From positions 1-44,377 of the IMG/VR virus record IMGVR_UViG_3300033141_001582: DNA of 44,377 nt; one strand, written 5' to 3'. A program made the translations under genes and the position numbers. A model generated the notes under the pieces. The model worked only from the letters and a program-made list of their open reading frames with translations, made no database searches and was not told where the DNA came from. Of the stretch, positions 4,042 to 33,041 are shown one piece after another. The first letter of the stretch is position 1, and every line of letters starts with the position of its first letter. Source of the DNA: a virus.

Positions 4042-4066
4042 AACTTCGTTCATTTTATGAACATAG
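4042..4066. repeat. dispersed palindrome copy 1 (GTTCATTTTATGAAC)
   Basis: A perfect 15-bp inverted repeat at 4048-4062, in the 37-base gap between two virion genes, followed by AGAGGAAATCAA and ATG 4077. The conserved GAAG flank is on the minus strand here. One of nine copies in the window. Confidence 0.85.
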
Positions 4067-16251: not shown

Positions 16252-17586
16252 CTAAATCAGTCCTTCTTCCACCAATCGAAGTACGTACGCATCCTTGTAC
16301 TCCTGACCAACGTCACATCCAAGTGGTGACAAGTTAAGATTCATCCCTGCACGAAGCGTGTTGCCACTTCCACAGAAGGGCACGTAAAGTCGTGCGCCCT
16401 CGTAAGCGAAGGTGGACAAGATGTCTTCCATTAGTGGAACTGGTCGTTCCGTGTTATGGATCTTATATTGGGAAGGAACCACAGGATACTCAAACGCGTT
16501 CGATCTACCACGCTTGTTAATATTGATCGTTGCATCGCCTTTGTAAGCATAGAAAAACATTTCGTAAATGTTGCCAAGGTAAATGTCGGGTTGGCGAGTT
16601 TGACCACCTACACCAGACTTGAGCCAAATGCCAGGCATGCGGCGTACGTTGAAGCCCTGGCGGTGGATGATAGTGAATACCACTTCAAACCACGGCTCAG
16701 GCCCGAACCAGAAGATCAACCATGAGTGATCGTTCATTATTCGCCAACATTCTTCGACAACACGCTCCAGGAACGAAACGTATTCCGTCTCAGGGATCTC
16801 CGTGTAGCTGGTGTCAAGCCCCATCTCGATGTTGTCCTTGATGTTTGGTAGGTCAATACCGTAAGGTGGGTCAACTTCCACTATGTCCATGACACCCGCA
16901 GGCACCTTCTGAACTAGCTCGAAAAAGTCTCCAACCATGTAGAGATCAGCGAGCTTGGTGTCCTTACGCTTCGTGGCGGCTACCATACGCGTGGCGAGTT
17001 CCGCACGGATGGCGACCTCCTCGACACGGTTAAGTAGCTTCAACGCTTCCGATTTGTTCTTGCATTTGTCCAAGCCGAGCTCAGGCATCTGCGCCATCGC
17101 CTCAGCAAGTTTGATGTCTTGTGAAGTGGTGCCGACAGCCTCGCCCAGAAGGTCTGCAGTGTCTCGCATAGAATGGCCTTCACTAACCAAGGCATGCTCA
17201 AGGTCCGTGCGGTCACCTCCGAACTTTTCCCCATGTATTTGGACCTGGAGATTATGGATATCTCGTTTGAGGTTGACTTCTTCCTGATATTCGAGATCTT
17301 TGCGTCGAATGTTTTCCTCAAGTTCAATTGATTTTCGTTCCAAGGGGGAAAGACCAGGTTCGTAGACTCTAACAGGGATTGTACTGATCTCTGCCAAACG
17401 GCACGCCTCAAGGCGGCGACCTCCTGCGAGGAGAGCGTATGTTCCGTCTCCGGTGTCTTCAACGGCGATCGGTTGGATAAGTCCTTTTTCTTTGATTGAT
17501 CGTGCGAGTTCATGTAAGTCTCCTAGGTCCTTTCGATGTCGATCAGCGACGGTTATGCGATCGATGTTTGCGATTTCAACTCTCAT
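16252..17586 (-). CDS. ParB-like domain fused to a DNA N6-adenine/N4-cytosine methyltransferase
   Basis: A 444-residue fusion. Residues 1-100 form a ParB/Srx-type domain, with ELARSIKEKGLIQPI and GGRRLEACRLA (55-65). A helical segment follows (about 100-200, including an HTH-like SMRDTADLLGEAVGTTSQDI). Residues 210-440 are an amino-methyltransferase with the catalytic DPPYGI (239-244) ahead of the AdoMet-binding FCGSGNT (404-410), the order of the beta class. Such fusions are common in phages and may protect DNA from restriction. It starts inside the previous gene with GAGGAG. Confidence 0.85.
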   Translation of the reverse strand: MRVEIANIDRITVADRHRKDLGDLHELARSIKEKGLIQPIAVEDTGDGTYALLAGGRRLEACRLAEISTIPVRVYEPGLSPLERKSIELEENIRRKDLEYQEEVNLKRDIHNLQVQIHGEKFGGDRTDLEHALVSEGHSMRDTADLLGEAVGTTSQDIKLAEAMAQMPELGLDKCKNKSEALKLLNRVEEVAIRAELATRMVAATKRKDTKLADLYMVGDFFELVQKVPAGVMDIVEVDPPYGIDLPNIKDNIEMGLDTSYTEIPETEYVSFLERVVEECWRIMNDHSWLIFWFGPEPWFEVVFTIIHRQGFNVRRMPGIWLKSGVGGQTRQPDIYLGNIYEMFFYAYKGDATININKRGRSNAFEYPVVPSQYKIHNTERPVPLMEDILSTFAYEGARLYVPFCGSGNTLRAGMNLNLSPLGCDVGQEYKDAYVLRLVEEGLI

Positions 17587-29112: not shown

Positions 29113-29280
29113 CTACTCCTTCGGAAGGTGTACGTTGATGAAGTGCCCGCCGACAAAGTCGATGCTCATTAAAACAGGCATCTCGCCCTCGTCGTTTTCG
29201 CTTTTGACTAGTGAGACAAGAATTTCATCACCAGGCTCGATCTGTTCCGTGAGTTTCTTTATTAGTTCTAGCCCTGTCAT
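29113..29280 (-). CDS. hypothetical protein, 55 aa
   Basis: Begins MTGLELIKKLTEQIEPGDEI and ends GGHFINVHLPKE; a small alpha/beta protein. It is the first gene after a consensus promoter (-10 at 29312-29317), about 25 bases from the predicted start of transcription, with a weak GAGAAAAG site. Not recognised. Confidence 0.6.
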   Translation of the reverse strand: MTGLELIKKLTEQIEPGDEILVSLVKSENDEGEMPVLMSIDFVGGHFINVHLPKE

Positions 29281-29311
29281 AACTTTTCTCTATTCTTAAT
29301 TGTTTAAAATC

Positions 29312-29340
29312 AGTATACCATAATCAAACGCAGATGTCAA
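29312..29340 (-). promoter_or_regulatory. sigma-70 promoter TTGACA-17-TATACT
   Basis: Minus-strand -35 at 29335-29340 and -10 at 29312-29317, spacer 17. The -35 region TTGACATCT and the GGTAT before the -10 are shared with two other promoters in this window. Confidence 0.8.
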
Positions 29341-29381: not shown

Positions 29382-29900
29382 TCAGGAAGTTTCAGGCTCT
29401 TCTACGACCGGAACGCCATTGACGTTGCCAAGCTCGTCATGCTCAGACTTGGAGCGTGCGGCTTGCTTAGCAGTGGCTATCCGCTGCGCGTCGGTGATAA
29501 CCTGCCCCATCTGAACAGGGTCGCTCGTTATCTTCTTAAGCTCTCCCTCTACATCTGCCTTGGTCCTTCTCGACTTCAGCTCTTTCACGTCCCATCCCTC
29601 GTAGTCATAAACTTCACGTTGCATCTCCTCCATGTAGTTCCTACCGCCGCGTCCGCTTGGGTTCAGGTCGCCAAGCCCGAGCCTTGTTAGAATCTCCCTT
29701 GCGTCGGTGATGCTCGTCACGCGCTCTGCATGGCCGCCCTTTATCAATATTCCCTCAAACTCCTCAAGCACCAGGCGCATTAGGAAACTCCTGCTCGGAA
29801 GCATTTGGCCCTTTATTGCGAAGAATCGTGCTACGGTAGCCAATGTAGTGCTCTTCACTCTCGCTTGCACGAGTGCGTCGCTCTTCTCTTGTCGATACAT
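29382..29900 (-). CDS. DNA-binding-like protein next to the candidate origin, 172 aa
   Basis: The N-terminal 50 residues (ARVKSTTLATVARFFAIKG followed by SRSFLMRLVLEEF) resemble a ribbon-helix-helix unit. The rest is charged and helical. It has its own consensus promoter and AAAGGAGTAAACG before ATG 29900. It directly borders the iteron-bearing inverted repeat, so an initiator or origin-regulating role is an attractive but unproven idea. Confidence 0.55.
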   Translation of the reverse strand: MYRQEKSDALVQARVKSTTLATVARFFAIKGQMLPSRSFLMRLVLEEFEGILIKGGHAERVTSITDAREILTRLGLGDLNPSGRGGRNYMEEMQREVYDYEGWDVKELKSRRTKADVEGELKKITSDPVQMGQVITDAQRIATAKQAARSKSEHDELGNVNGVPVVEEPETS

Positions 29901-29928
29901 CGTTTACTCCTTTCCCATTGTTCAGACT

Positions 29929-29957
29929 ATCATACCACATTCAAGCGTAGATGTCAA
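29929..29957 (-). promoter_or_regulatory. sigma-70 promoter TTGACA-17-TATGAT
   Basis: Minus-strand -35 at 29952-29957 and -10 at 29929-29934, spacer 17, ending in TGTGG before the -10 like its sister promoters. It drives the 29382-29900 gene and leads straight out of the candidate origin. Confidence 0.8.
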
Positions 29958-29977
29958 TTTAATATTTGGTGGAATTG

Positions 29978-30320
29978 TATGCGGTGACGCGATTGACTTG
30001 CGTGACTCGACTGAGTGTATGTTGTATGCCACCCCCCCATGCCTTCCTGCCAATGGTCGAACGAAGATGACTTGTTGTCCAACTACGTTCATATTATGAA
30101 CGAAGTAGCCGAGAGAGAGAGAGAGAGAGAGAACAATTCTTCTTTCTCTTTCCTTCTTTCTTTCTATATTTTTTTTTAAATGTTGTGGGTTTGAGGCCCT
30201 AAGCCTTAGTTCTGGCGGTAGGTGAAGCCTTCATCTTCGTTCATGGATTTGGCGGAAGGGCCTACCCCCCCGCATACAACATACAGTCACGCAAGTCACG
30301 CGAGTCACGCGAGTCATTGT
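29978..30320. other. candidate replication origin: inverted repeat with 9-bp iterons
   Basis: This is the main part of the gene-free stretch 29901-30376. Long imperfect inverted arms lie at 29995-30070 and 30230-30297. They contain 13-bp perfect blocks (29995-30007 with 30285-30297, and 30017-30029 with 30272-30284) and a 12-bp block (30059-30070 with 30230-30241). The right arm holds three tandem AGTCACGCR units at 30285-30311 plus a partial one; the left arm carries degenerate units on the minus strand. Between the arms are a dispersed palindrome, eleven GA units (30111-30132), a pyrimidine tract and nine T's (30169-30177). Iterons plus an easily melted tract fit an origin. Confidence 0.55.
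30083..30106. repeat. dispersed palindrome copy 6 (GTTCATATTATGAAC)
   Basis: Core 30087-30101; outer bases CTAC/GAAGTAG extend the symmetry. The only copy inside the candidate origin. Confidence 0.85.
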
Positions 30321-30332
30321 ATACATTCAAAC

Positions 30333-30366
30333 GAACGAAAGCCCAGGCAGTTCTCACTACCCAGGC
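30333..30366 (-). terminator. intrinsic terminator with GAGA loop
   Basis: On the minus strand an 11-pair stem (30356-30366 with 30341-30351, three G-U pairs) closes a GAGA tetraloop and is followed by TTTCGTTC. It ends leftward transcription from the gene at 30377 before the candidate origin. Confidence 0.6.
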
Positions 30367-30376
30367 CCTTGTGGCG

Positions 30377-31185: not shown

Positions 31186-31209
31186 AGCAGGCCACACCAG
31201 AACCACCAG
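31186..31209. repeat. 5' arm of an RNA panhandle around 30826-31167
   Basis: 24 bases in the 5' leader of the leftward gene, complementary in RNA to 30785-30808. It ends 11 bases before the GGGG ribosome site. Confidence 0.7.
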
Positions 31210-31266
31210 TCATATTCTATTGTCAATGAACGTGTTGTTCCCATGCCCTTTCGCATGGTTGATTCC

Positions 31267-31295
31267 ATTAAAACATAGAACACCATGAATGTCAA
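31267..31295 (-). promoter_or_regulatory. sigma-70 promoter TTGACA-17-TTTAAT
   Basis: Minus-strand -35 31290-31295 and -10 31267-31272. It would start the leftward operon about 93 bases before ATG 31167, with a CCATGC/GCATGG hairpin at the very 5' end. Confidence 0.65.
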
Positions 31296-31424
31296 GGAAA
31301 TAATTCAATCCACGTTTTGCTATCACAAAATTCAAAGGGGGAAAATAGGTTTCAAAACGCGCGGGAAGGCTTCTGCAGAAAATGTATGAGGTATTAAATA
31401 CCCACAAAATTGTGATAAAAGTCA

Positions 31425-31455
31425 ACTACGTTCATAAGCTGGCGAGGCCAGCGAA
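31425..31455. repeat. degenerate palindrome copy interrupted by a hairpin
   Basis: AACTACGTTCAT (31425-31436) and CGAAGTG (31452-31458) match the two flanks of the dispersed element, but the right half of the core is replaced by CTGGC-N3-GCCAG. Confidence 0.5.
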
Positions 31456-31469
31456 GTGACAATGGATTA

Positions 31470-31492
31470 CTTTGTTCATTTTATGAACGAAG
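31470..31492. repeat. dispersed palindrome copy 7 (GTTCATTTTATGAAC)
   Basis: Core 31474-31488, GAAG on the right. It lies about 120 bases upstream of the rightward promoter and beside the disrupted copy. Confidence 0.85.
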
Positions 31493-31605
31493 AAGAGGTT
31501 GACCTTGGGTTAGTTTGCGAGGCGGCGACAGGTTTGCGAGCGTGCAACGCCTCCCCACAAATGGTTGGAAATGAAGAACGAGGCCAGTTTCCACCCAATA
31601 ATAAC

Positions 31606-31635
31606 TTGACATCTGATGTGGAATTGTGGTATAGT
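31606..31635 (+). promoter_or_regulatory. sigma-70 promoter TTGACA-18-TATAGT
   Basis: -35 31606-31611 and -10 31630-31635, followed by a second TATAAT at 31642-31647. TTGACATCT and TGTGGTAT match two leftward promoters. It drives the rightward operon from 31674. Confidence 0.75.
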
Positions 31636-31673
31636 GAATGATATAATGAAAGAGGTTTAAAGGGAGACAGATT

Positions 31674-32173: not shown

Positions 32174-32383
32174 GTGATTCAAGAGGCAGAAACTAAAGCT
32201 TTGATGGACAAGTTATTAGACCATCTATTCACGTCGTGGCTCAAGGAGCACGCCAGACGCTGCCCGAACTGTGACGAGGGCATAGAGGAAGCTGTTTGCA
32301 TTTGCTCCGAGTCTGTGCTGAAGATGAAGGAGATCCAAGGCAAGATAAAGGAGGTTCTGAATGGCTCAGGACGCGGAACCTAA
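32174..32383 (+). CDS. small Cys-containing protein, 69 aa (GTG start)
   Basis: AAAGGAGAGCAAA precedes GTG 32174. Two helices flank a cysteine cluster (RCPNCDEGIEEAVCICSES). It overlaps the small terminase gene by 23 bases. A zinc site is likely, role unknown. Confidence 0.55.
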   Translation: MIQEAETKALMDKLLDHLFTSWLKEHARRCPNCDEGIEEAVCICSESVLKMKEIQGKIKEVLNGSGRGT

Positions 32384-33041
32384 AACCGTAATGGATGAGA
32401 TACTGAACTTGCTTAGTGAGAATCCCGAGTTCAAGCCCAAGCTTGTGTCCAACCCCAGGCACGAACCTAAGCTTATCCACGCGCCGAAGCCACCGAAGGA
32501 GAAGTATCACAACGGCAACCGTGGGCCGGACGAGCGCAGAGTAGCTCCCGACAAAAAGCGTACGTTCGAAGTCAGTGAGATGTGGGACGTGCATCACGAG
32601 ATCGTGCGGCGACTTCTAATTGGACAAAAAGTAGTCAACATTGCTAGGGATCTCGGTGTAAGTGAAGCAATGGTTTCTTACACTCGTAACTCTCCGATCG
32701 TGCGTGAGAAGCTCGAGATTATGAAGGGTGCACGCGACGCTGAGACACTTGACTTGGCCAAGCGTATCCGTGAGAATGCTCCACAGTCGTTAAAGCTACT
32801 TGAAGACATAATTAGCGGCGAGGTTGACGGAGTACCTATTGGAGTTGGGCTAAGGGCGAAAGAGGCCAACACTATGCTTGCTCGTTCCGGATTCGGCCCA
32901 GTTCAGAATATCAAGGGAGCGATCGTTCATGGACACTACACGAGCGACGAAATCGACGAGATTAAGCGGCGTGCTGTTGAGGATGGATTGAAGTCTGGCC
33001 TCGTTGTTGAAGGTGAGGTCGTAGAGATGGAAGCCGAGTAA
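32361..33041 (+). CDS. terS: terminase small subunit-like protein
   Basis: 226 residues. After a Pro/Lys-rich N-terminus, residues about 75-120 hold a helix-turn-helix (IVRRLLIGQKVVNIARDLGV, then SEAMVSYTRNSPIVREKL). An oligomerisation-type helix follows (MKGARDAETLDLAKRI, ENAPQSLKLLEDII). This is the layout of phage small terminases, which mark the packaging site. The large subunit is 3 kb downstream, with lysis and fibre genes between. Assignment is from motif order and context. Confidence 0.65.
   Translation: MAQDAEPKTVMDEILNLLSENPEFKPKLVSNPRHEPKLIHAPKPPKEKYHNGNRGPDERRVAPDKKRTFEVSEMWDVHHEIVRRLLIGQKVVNIARDLGVSEAMVSYTRNSPIVREKLEIMKGARDAETLDLAKRIRENAPQSLKLLEDIISGEVDGVPIGVGLRAKEANTMLARSGFGPVQNIKGAIVHGHYTSDEIDEIKRRAVEDGLKSGLVVEGEVVEMEAE

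Follow-up and report, generated by a model that had tools for sequence, protein, structure and literature searches.

An inverted repeat of 9-bp units around an easily melted core: a candidate DNA replication origin in an environmental tailed phage

The origin of phage lambda combines four ~19-bp O-protein iterons with a 40-bp A+T-rich region (PMC5043065), and OriS of herpes simplex virus (HSV) has inverted OBP boxes around an AT-rich spacer (PMC12543377). Contiguous short repeats are also bound by the ribbon-helix-helix (RHH) protein omega of pSM19035, which occupies 7-10 consecutive 7-bp repeats overlapping promoters, its own included (PMC9499535). Here, we describe an inverted repeat (IR) in a single IMG/VR virus record (IMGVR_UViG_3300033141_001582; 44,377 bases, analysed at full length and referred to below as the window), which by gene content comes from an environmental tailed phage. 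The element is probably an origin of phage DNA replication, with inverted arrays on either side of an unwinding element; a sequence-only reading of the window had proposed it as a candidate replication origin. Comparison with relatives supported the proposal through the position of the element, its inverted short-period arrays, a weak core with fixed polarity, its insulation and its proximity to the GC-skew minimum; however, two of the refuting outcomes named in that reading apply in part, as the letters of the iterons are not conserved and the skew minimum is offset. The element was not found described in the literature searched (open-licence papers).

The IR lies in the non-coding gap of 476 bp given in the earlier reading (29901-30376), flanked by two minus-strand genes. 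That reading placed arms of about 70 bases at 29995-30070 and 30230-30297; the repeat is real but the arms are longer, and full local alignment pairs 29965-30070 with 30231-30335 (72 of 106 columns identical). Six contiguous 9-bp units in register make up the outermost 54 nt of each arm; on the plus strand of the left arm (29976-30029) they read TGTATGCGG TGACGCGAT TGACTTGCG TGACTCGAC TGAGTGTAT GTTGTATGC and are matched unit by unit on the minus strand of the right arm (30272-30325). 43 of the 54 positions match in this register, compared with 26-30 of 54 when the arms are shifted by 9 nt, and the autocorrelation of the arms at lag 9 has a z score of 5.8. The right-arm units include the three tandem copies of AGTCACGCR noticed earlier (AGTCACGCA/G/G at 30285, 30294 and 30303, spanning 30285-30311). 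Inward of the units an inner stem of 29 nt (30042-30070) is complementary to 30231-30259 at 76% of positions. The perfect blocks of the first description, 12-13 bp or more in length, were located at 30017-30029/30272-30284, 30059-30070/30231-30242 and 29994-30007/30285-30298, the last pair being one unit out of register. At the inner edges of the unit arrays each arm carries seven C's on the same strand (30032-30038 and 30265-30271), so placed that the two runs are unpaired with each other; they are the only C7 runs in the window.

The whole record was scanned for inverted arms separated by 70 nt or more, with detection thresholds that were the analyst's choice (the IR of one relative, G013, was first spotted by eye). 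With a score of 73 the IR is the strongest separated-arm inverted repeat of the record, the runner-up scoring 35. Sixty dinucleotide shuffles of the region gave a mean of 22.6 (s.d. 3.1) and a maximum of 33, so that the inverted repeat is real and far above chance. The single 9-mer is not enriched in the window (17 one-mismatch sites versus 17.6 expected); tandem pairs of it are (four versus 0.1 expected).

The proposed DNA unwinding element (DUE; 30131-30180) lies between the arms and comprises a pyrimidine tract (30137-30165) followed by TATAT and the T9 run (30169-30177) that had been pointed out in the sequence-only reading. Among the 50-mers of the 44-kb record it ranks second lowest in stability; the least stable (29279-29328) lies upstream of the next promoter.

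The architecture is kept among relatives while the letters change. G001 is 95, 90 and 97% identical to the window in TerL, PolA and primase, respectively, and its matching gap contains an IR in which CAAACAATR replaces AGTCACGCR (plus strand); the unit consensus is TGACTYGCG in the window and TTGYATTGT in G001 despite the near-identity of the primases. IRs with changed units were also found in G003, L007, G004, G007, G011, G013, G014, G016, G017, G019, G020 and G010 and in the named Desulfofustis phage LS06-2018-MD01. Three records have the element split over the two contig ends, and there it was read on the assumption that the ends join into a circle. No IR was seen in G002, G009, G012 and G018, whose contigs are fragments or stop close to where the IR would be expected. 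In 13 of 15 genomes an arm resembles its own partner more closely than any arm from another genome, the exception being the close pair L007/G004. The search for the iterons in relatives thus returned their period, symmetry and position, but not the letters of the units.

A blind test was performed with the terS family as the sole bait. The small terminase-like terS gene of the window (32361-33041, plus strand; a putative assignment from pattern and synteny with TerL) is a positional anchor ~2 kb to the right of the IR. 68 loci were obtained, of which the 48 with at least 2 kb upstream were scored against downstream control flanks; these 48 include eight already known loci and some near-duplicates. 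An IR scoring above 43, the control maximum (controls: mean 32.4, s.d. 4.0), was present in 41 of the 48 upstream flanks, nearly always 1.0-3.8 kb upstream of terS and once at 5.7 kb. Pooling of all sources and removal of redundancy left 35 IRs. The arms in relatives are inverted and ~50-150 nt long, and the mean autocorrelation z score over the 35 IRs is highest at lag 9 (2.0), followed by lags 8 (1.5) and 18 (1.3). The lag-9 score exceeds 3 in ten of the 35 and about one third of the IRs prefer other lags, so the period of 8-9 bp is a tendency and no rule.

The weakness of the core and its polarity are likewise shared. The least stable 50-mer (within the top 0.1%) lies inside the IR at 22 of 27 loci and in nine of the 11 genomes scanned whole or nearly so, and T-runs of at least eight fall on one and the same strand, as judged from the flanking genes, in 22 of 22 cases (p = 5e-7). 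Spot checks of more distant polymerase relatives gave an outstanding IR, enclosing what is essentially the least stable 50-mer of the genome, in Microcystis phage Mel-JY34 (46.5, against 35.5 for the next) and phage MW202489 (77.5, against 37.5 for the next); by our reading of the gene maps, their T/A run is on the strand opposite to that of the main clade. Caulobacter phage Kuura, with a distant PolA, showed no outstanding IR.

The gene setting is that of a replication region. The genes recognized encode a PolA-type polymerase, a DUF3987/primase, a ParB-methyltransferase, a Sak4-like protein, an exonuclease, a ligase and a large terminase; the replication genes are all on the minus strand (~11 to 31 kb) and the late genes are on the plus strand from ~31.7 kb. 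The IR is located at the head of the operon with the primase, PolA, Sak4, exonuclease and ligase genes. The ParB-methyltransferase gene (16252-17586) fuses a ParB-N domain to an N6/N4 DNA methyltransferase and is conserved throughout the clade. A primase search of genome contigs turned up no relatives, and therefore no prophage or host was identified.

The core appears to be insulated from outside transcription by a terminator-like hairpin on one side and an outward-pointing promoter on the other. The hairpin (30338-30369, minus strand), at the end of the upstream leftward genes, forms the outer right boundary and in G001 and G003 is built again from altered sequence. The outer left boundary is a sigma-70-like promoter (TTGACA-17-TATGAT, 11/12; 29929-29957, minus strand) of the 29382-29900 gene, and a AATATTTGGTGGAATT motif between this promoter and the left arm (29961-29976, plus strand) recurs in close relatives.

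The gene at 29382-29900 (minus strand) encodes a 172-residue protein that is RHH-like by pattern. In its predicted model residues 11-60 are confident, with helices at 17-29 and 37-54 (predicted local distance difference test, pLDDT, ~90) in a strand-helix-helix pattern; an AlphaFold run on four sequences gave a poor model (pLDDT 53). Searches of Pfam, PF01402 and Foldseek gave no significant match for it, so an RHH identity by database or fold was not adopted and the assignment was kept as one of pattern only. A member of its family lies downstream of the IR in 15 of 15 genomes of the first set and at 20 of 24 further loci. Since RHH proteins can read contiguous short repeats (PMC9499535), this product is a reasonable candidate for the protein that would bind the units. 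It is 62% identical between the window and G001; other small genes of the region diverge as much (48-61%), and its faster divergence is therefore weak evidence of co-divergence with the units.

Initiation could then proceed as follows. A sequence-specific protein would bind both inverted arrays of 9-bp units (29976-30029 and 30272-30325), most plausibly the RHH-like product or otherwise the phage primase-helicase or a host factor. The primase, 97% identical while the units change, was considered unlikely as the 9-mer binder. Assembly on both arms would open the weak pyrimidine/T9 core (30131-30180), helped by the arms folding on each other as hairpins once single-stranded; primase and polymerase would be loaded at the opened core and forks would depart both ways.

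Several observations weigh against an origin of this kind. The units differ between close relatives while primase (97%) and PolA (90%) hardly change, which would be hard to reconcile with a fixed sequence-specific initiator unless binding is by the small protein, which evolves faster (62%). Contiguous 9-bp units are out of helical phase, unlike most plasmid iterons (PMC5043065). The core of G013 is weak only at the 3.3% level, and L007 and G004 have no T-run of at least eight. The IR lies 1.1-1.6 kb from the detrended GC-skew minimum in nine of 12 near-complete records, yet in the window the minimum is ~1.1 kb off the IR, at the divergence of two gene blocks, and the skew tracks gene orientation. 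Because the genes diverge at the same place, the skew is not independent evidence; the check proposed earlier thus found a minimum near the IR but offset from it and explained by orientation, and GC skew was rejected as proof of an origin. That minimum falls in a second long gap (31207-31673), between the divergent early and late units, which also holds divergent promoters and two copies of the dispersed palindrome described below.

Judged by what characterizes iteron origins, the window has an above-chance array of short repeats and an adjacent AT-rich, easily melted region; its repeats are not the helix-phased, mostly direct ones of that class, nor is their sequence conserved with a cognate initiator among relatives. 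The inverted site-like arrays around an AT-rich spacer seem to match the OriS pattern. More tentatively, the element could represent a new class of origin with its specificity in architecture and not in sequence, a proposal that we regard as possible rather than probable. Long arms of ~9-bp units would fold across a strand-polarized T-tract core, and a phage initiator would recognize the resulting structure (hairpin or cruciform), concerted evolution keeping the arms complementary while the letters turn over.

The best-surviving alternative, itself unlikely, is an operator or centromere-like array in which the RHH-like protein binds the 9-bp units for self-repression or for genome pairing and segregation, the weak core being incidental. 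Binding to contiguous short repeats is known for RHH proteins (PMC9499535), and the promoter of the 29382-29900 gene abuts the left arm. However, the IR of several relatives is separated from the small gene by 0.5-4 kb and so cannot be its operator, and a regulator needs neither the weakest core of the genome nor a T-run of fixed polarity. A centromere would call for a ParA or ParM motor, and none was seen among 20 proteins scanned, in which the small proteins were only partly covered; the RHH-like identity, too, is one of pattern.

Next, and less probable still, is a packaging site or genome terminus, with the terminase cut or the virion ends at the element. Its location 1-4 kb upstream of terS would fit, and near-complete contigs end inside the IR in G014, G017 and G020 and at its edge in G019 (L066), which is far commoner than random ends would give. 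Such ends can be either a true terminus or an assembly break at hairpins and homopolymers, and for this reason the explanation was kept. Against it, other circular contigs have their ends at different places, assemblies commonly break at long T/A runs and hairpins, pac and cos sites are usually within or adjoining terS, and packaging accounts neither for the weak core nor for the inverted arrays. Assemblies of the clade tend to break at this place, with G014 (L070/L071), G017 (L072/L073) and G020 (L067/L068) starting or ending in or beside the IR.

A structured RNA, regulatory or non-coding, with a long stem kept by compensatory change is very improbable: the arms of each genome are complementary despite their changed sequence, as in an RNA stem, and fold strongly on both strands, but G-T and A-C mismatches number 133 and 187, with no tolerance of wobble pairs on either strand after correction for composition (p = 0.13), matches to Rfam were at chance level, and a terminator-like hairpin and a promoter delimit the element; on these three grounds an RNA element was rejected. 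We give equally little credence to a selfish IR or palindrome-correction artefact, in which template switching at a fork-stalling site homogenizes the arms with no selected function: the two arms evolve in concert, and polypurine and homopolymer tracts stall forks, but across dozens of diverged genomes such a process would not keep one position, an 8-9 bp period, the strand of the T-run and the weakest core. A MITE-like mobile element was rejected, as the IR occupies one syntenic position in diverged genomes, unlike an insertion.

Three further features lie between the arms. The eleven GA units are present ((GA)11, 30111-30132, plus strand) but are not kept as such in relatives, where this tract is variable. 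The box TTGTGGGTTTGAGGCCCTAAGCCTTAG (30183-30209, plus strand) has a TTGTGGATTT core that is found again in G001, G003, G004 and L007, either next to the T-run or centrally. The palindrome copy that had been counted inside the element is there (30082-30106, plus strand) but is not specific to the site, being one of nine dispersed copies, and was rejected as a specific part of the origin; neither it nor the GA tract is a conserved part of the element. The palindrome, CTWYGTTCATWWWATGAACGAAG, occurs at 4047, 11528, 18644, 24434, 27633, 30086, 31473, 34001 and 43387 (0.14 copies expected), mostly between genes. Its loop reads ATTTTAT in regions of rightward genes and ATAAAAT in those of leftward genes, that is UUUU in the mRNA sense, with one exception (11528), and it looks like a dispersed mRNA hairpin.

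Strong TTGACATCTRCGYTTGA-like promoters are common to the early and late units. Members of this family with TATGAT/TATACT lie at 29312-29340 (minus strand), 29929-29957 (minus strand) and 31606-31635 (plus strand), each matching at 11/12. In G016 (L069, 4395-5189) further long inverted repeats lie next to the origin-like element, around a small gene region. An inserted open reading frame just upstream of terS in the close relative L006 (1081-1475), which by eye has the look of a homing endonuclease, is not in L004.

For most uncultured phages the origins are unknown and beyond the reach of sequence similarity. An element that keeps its shape, position and melting behaviour without keeping its letters would offer a simple, testable locator of origins across a broad phage clade, possibly extending to phages of cultured hosts (Microcystis). 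It also raises the question of how an initiator tracks, or ignores, a binding site whose halves evolve in concert.

Compared with pSM19035 parS/omega (PMC9499535), the element shares contiguous short repeats off helical phase and possibly an RHH binder encoded nearby; parS has a fixed 7-bp consensus, works with a ParA and occurs at several sites in a replicon, whereas here there is one site with a 9-bp period, a variable sequence and a melting core. Iteron plasmid origins and the PLE RepA_N origin of Vibrio satellites (PMC5043065, PMC7145576) are likewise non-coding arrays of short repeats with a DUE, but here the 9-mers are contiguous and form inverted arrays, and no Rep family turned up. With lambda ori the element has in common repeated initiator-type units beside easily melted DNA in a phage replication region. 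The lambda iterons are on one side and inside the O gene, whereas the contiguous 9-bp units described here are on both sides, in long inverted arms within a non-coding gap, and their letters vary by relative. With HSV OriS it shares inverted binding-site-like arms around an AT-rich spacer, and in both the arms can form a hairpin on unwinding; OriS has two or three boxes, and there the hairpin arises on one side, by pairing of Box 3 with Box 1, whereas the 50-150 nt arms found here would pair across the core. These likenesses are of principle and symmetry, and no descent is claimed. On the best reading, the element would work like the lambda or herpes OriS origins, yet it differs from both in design.
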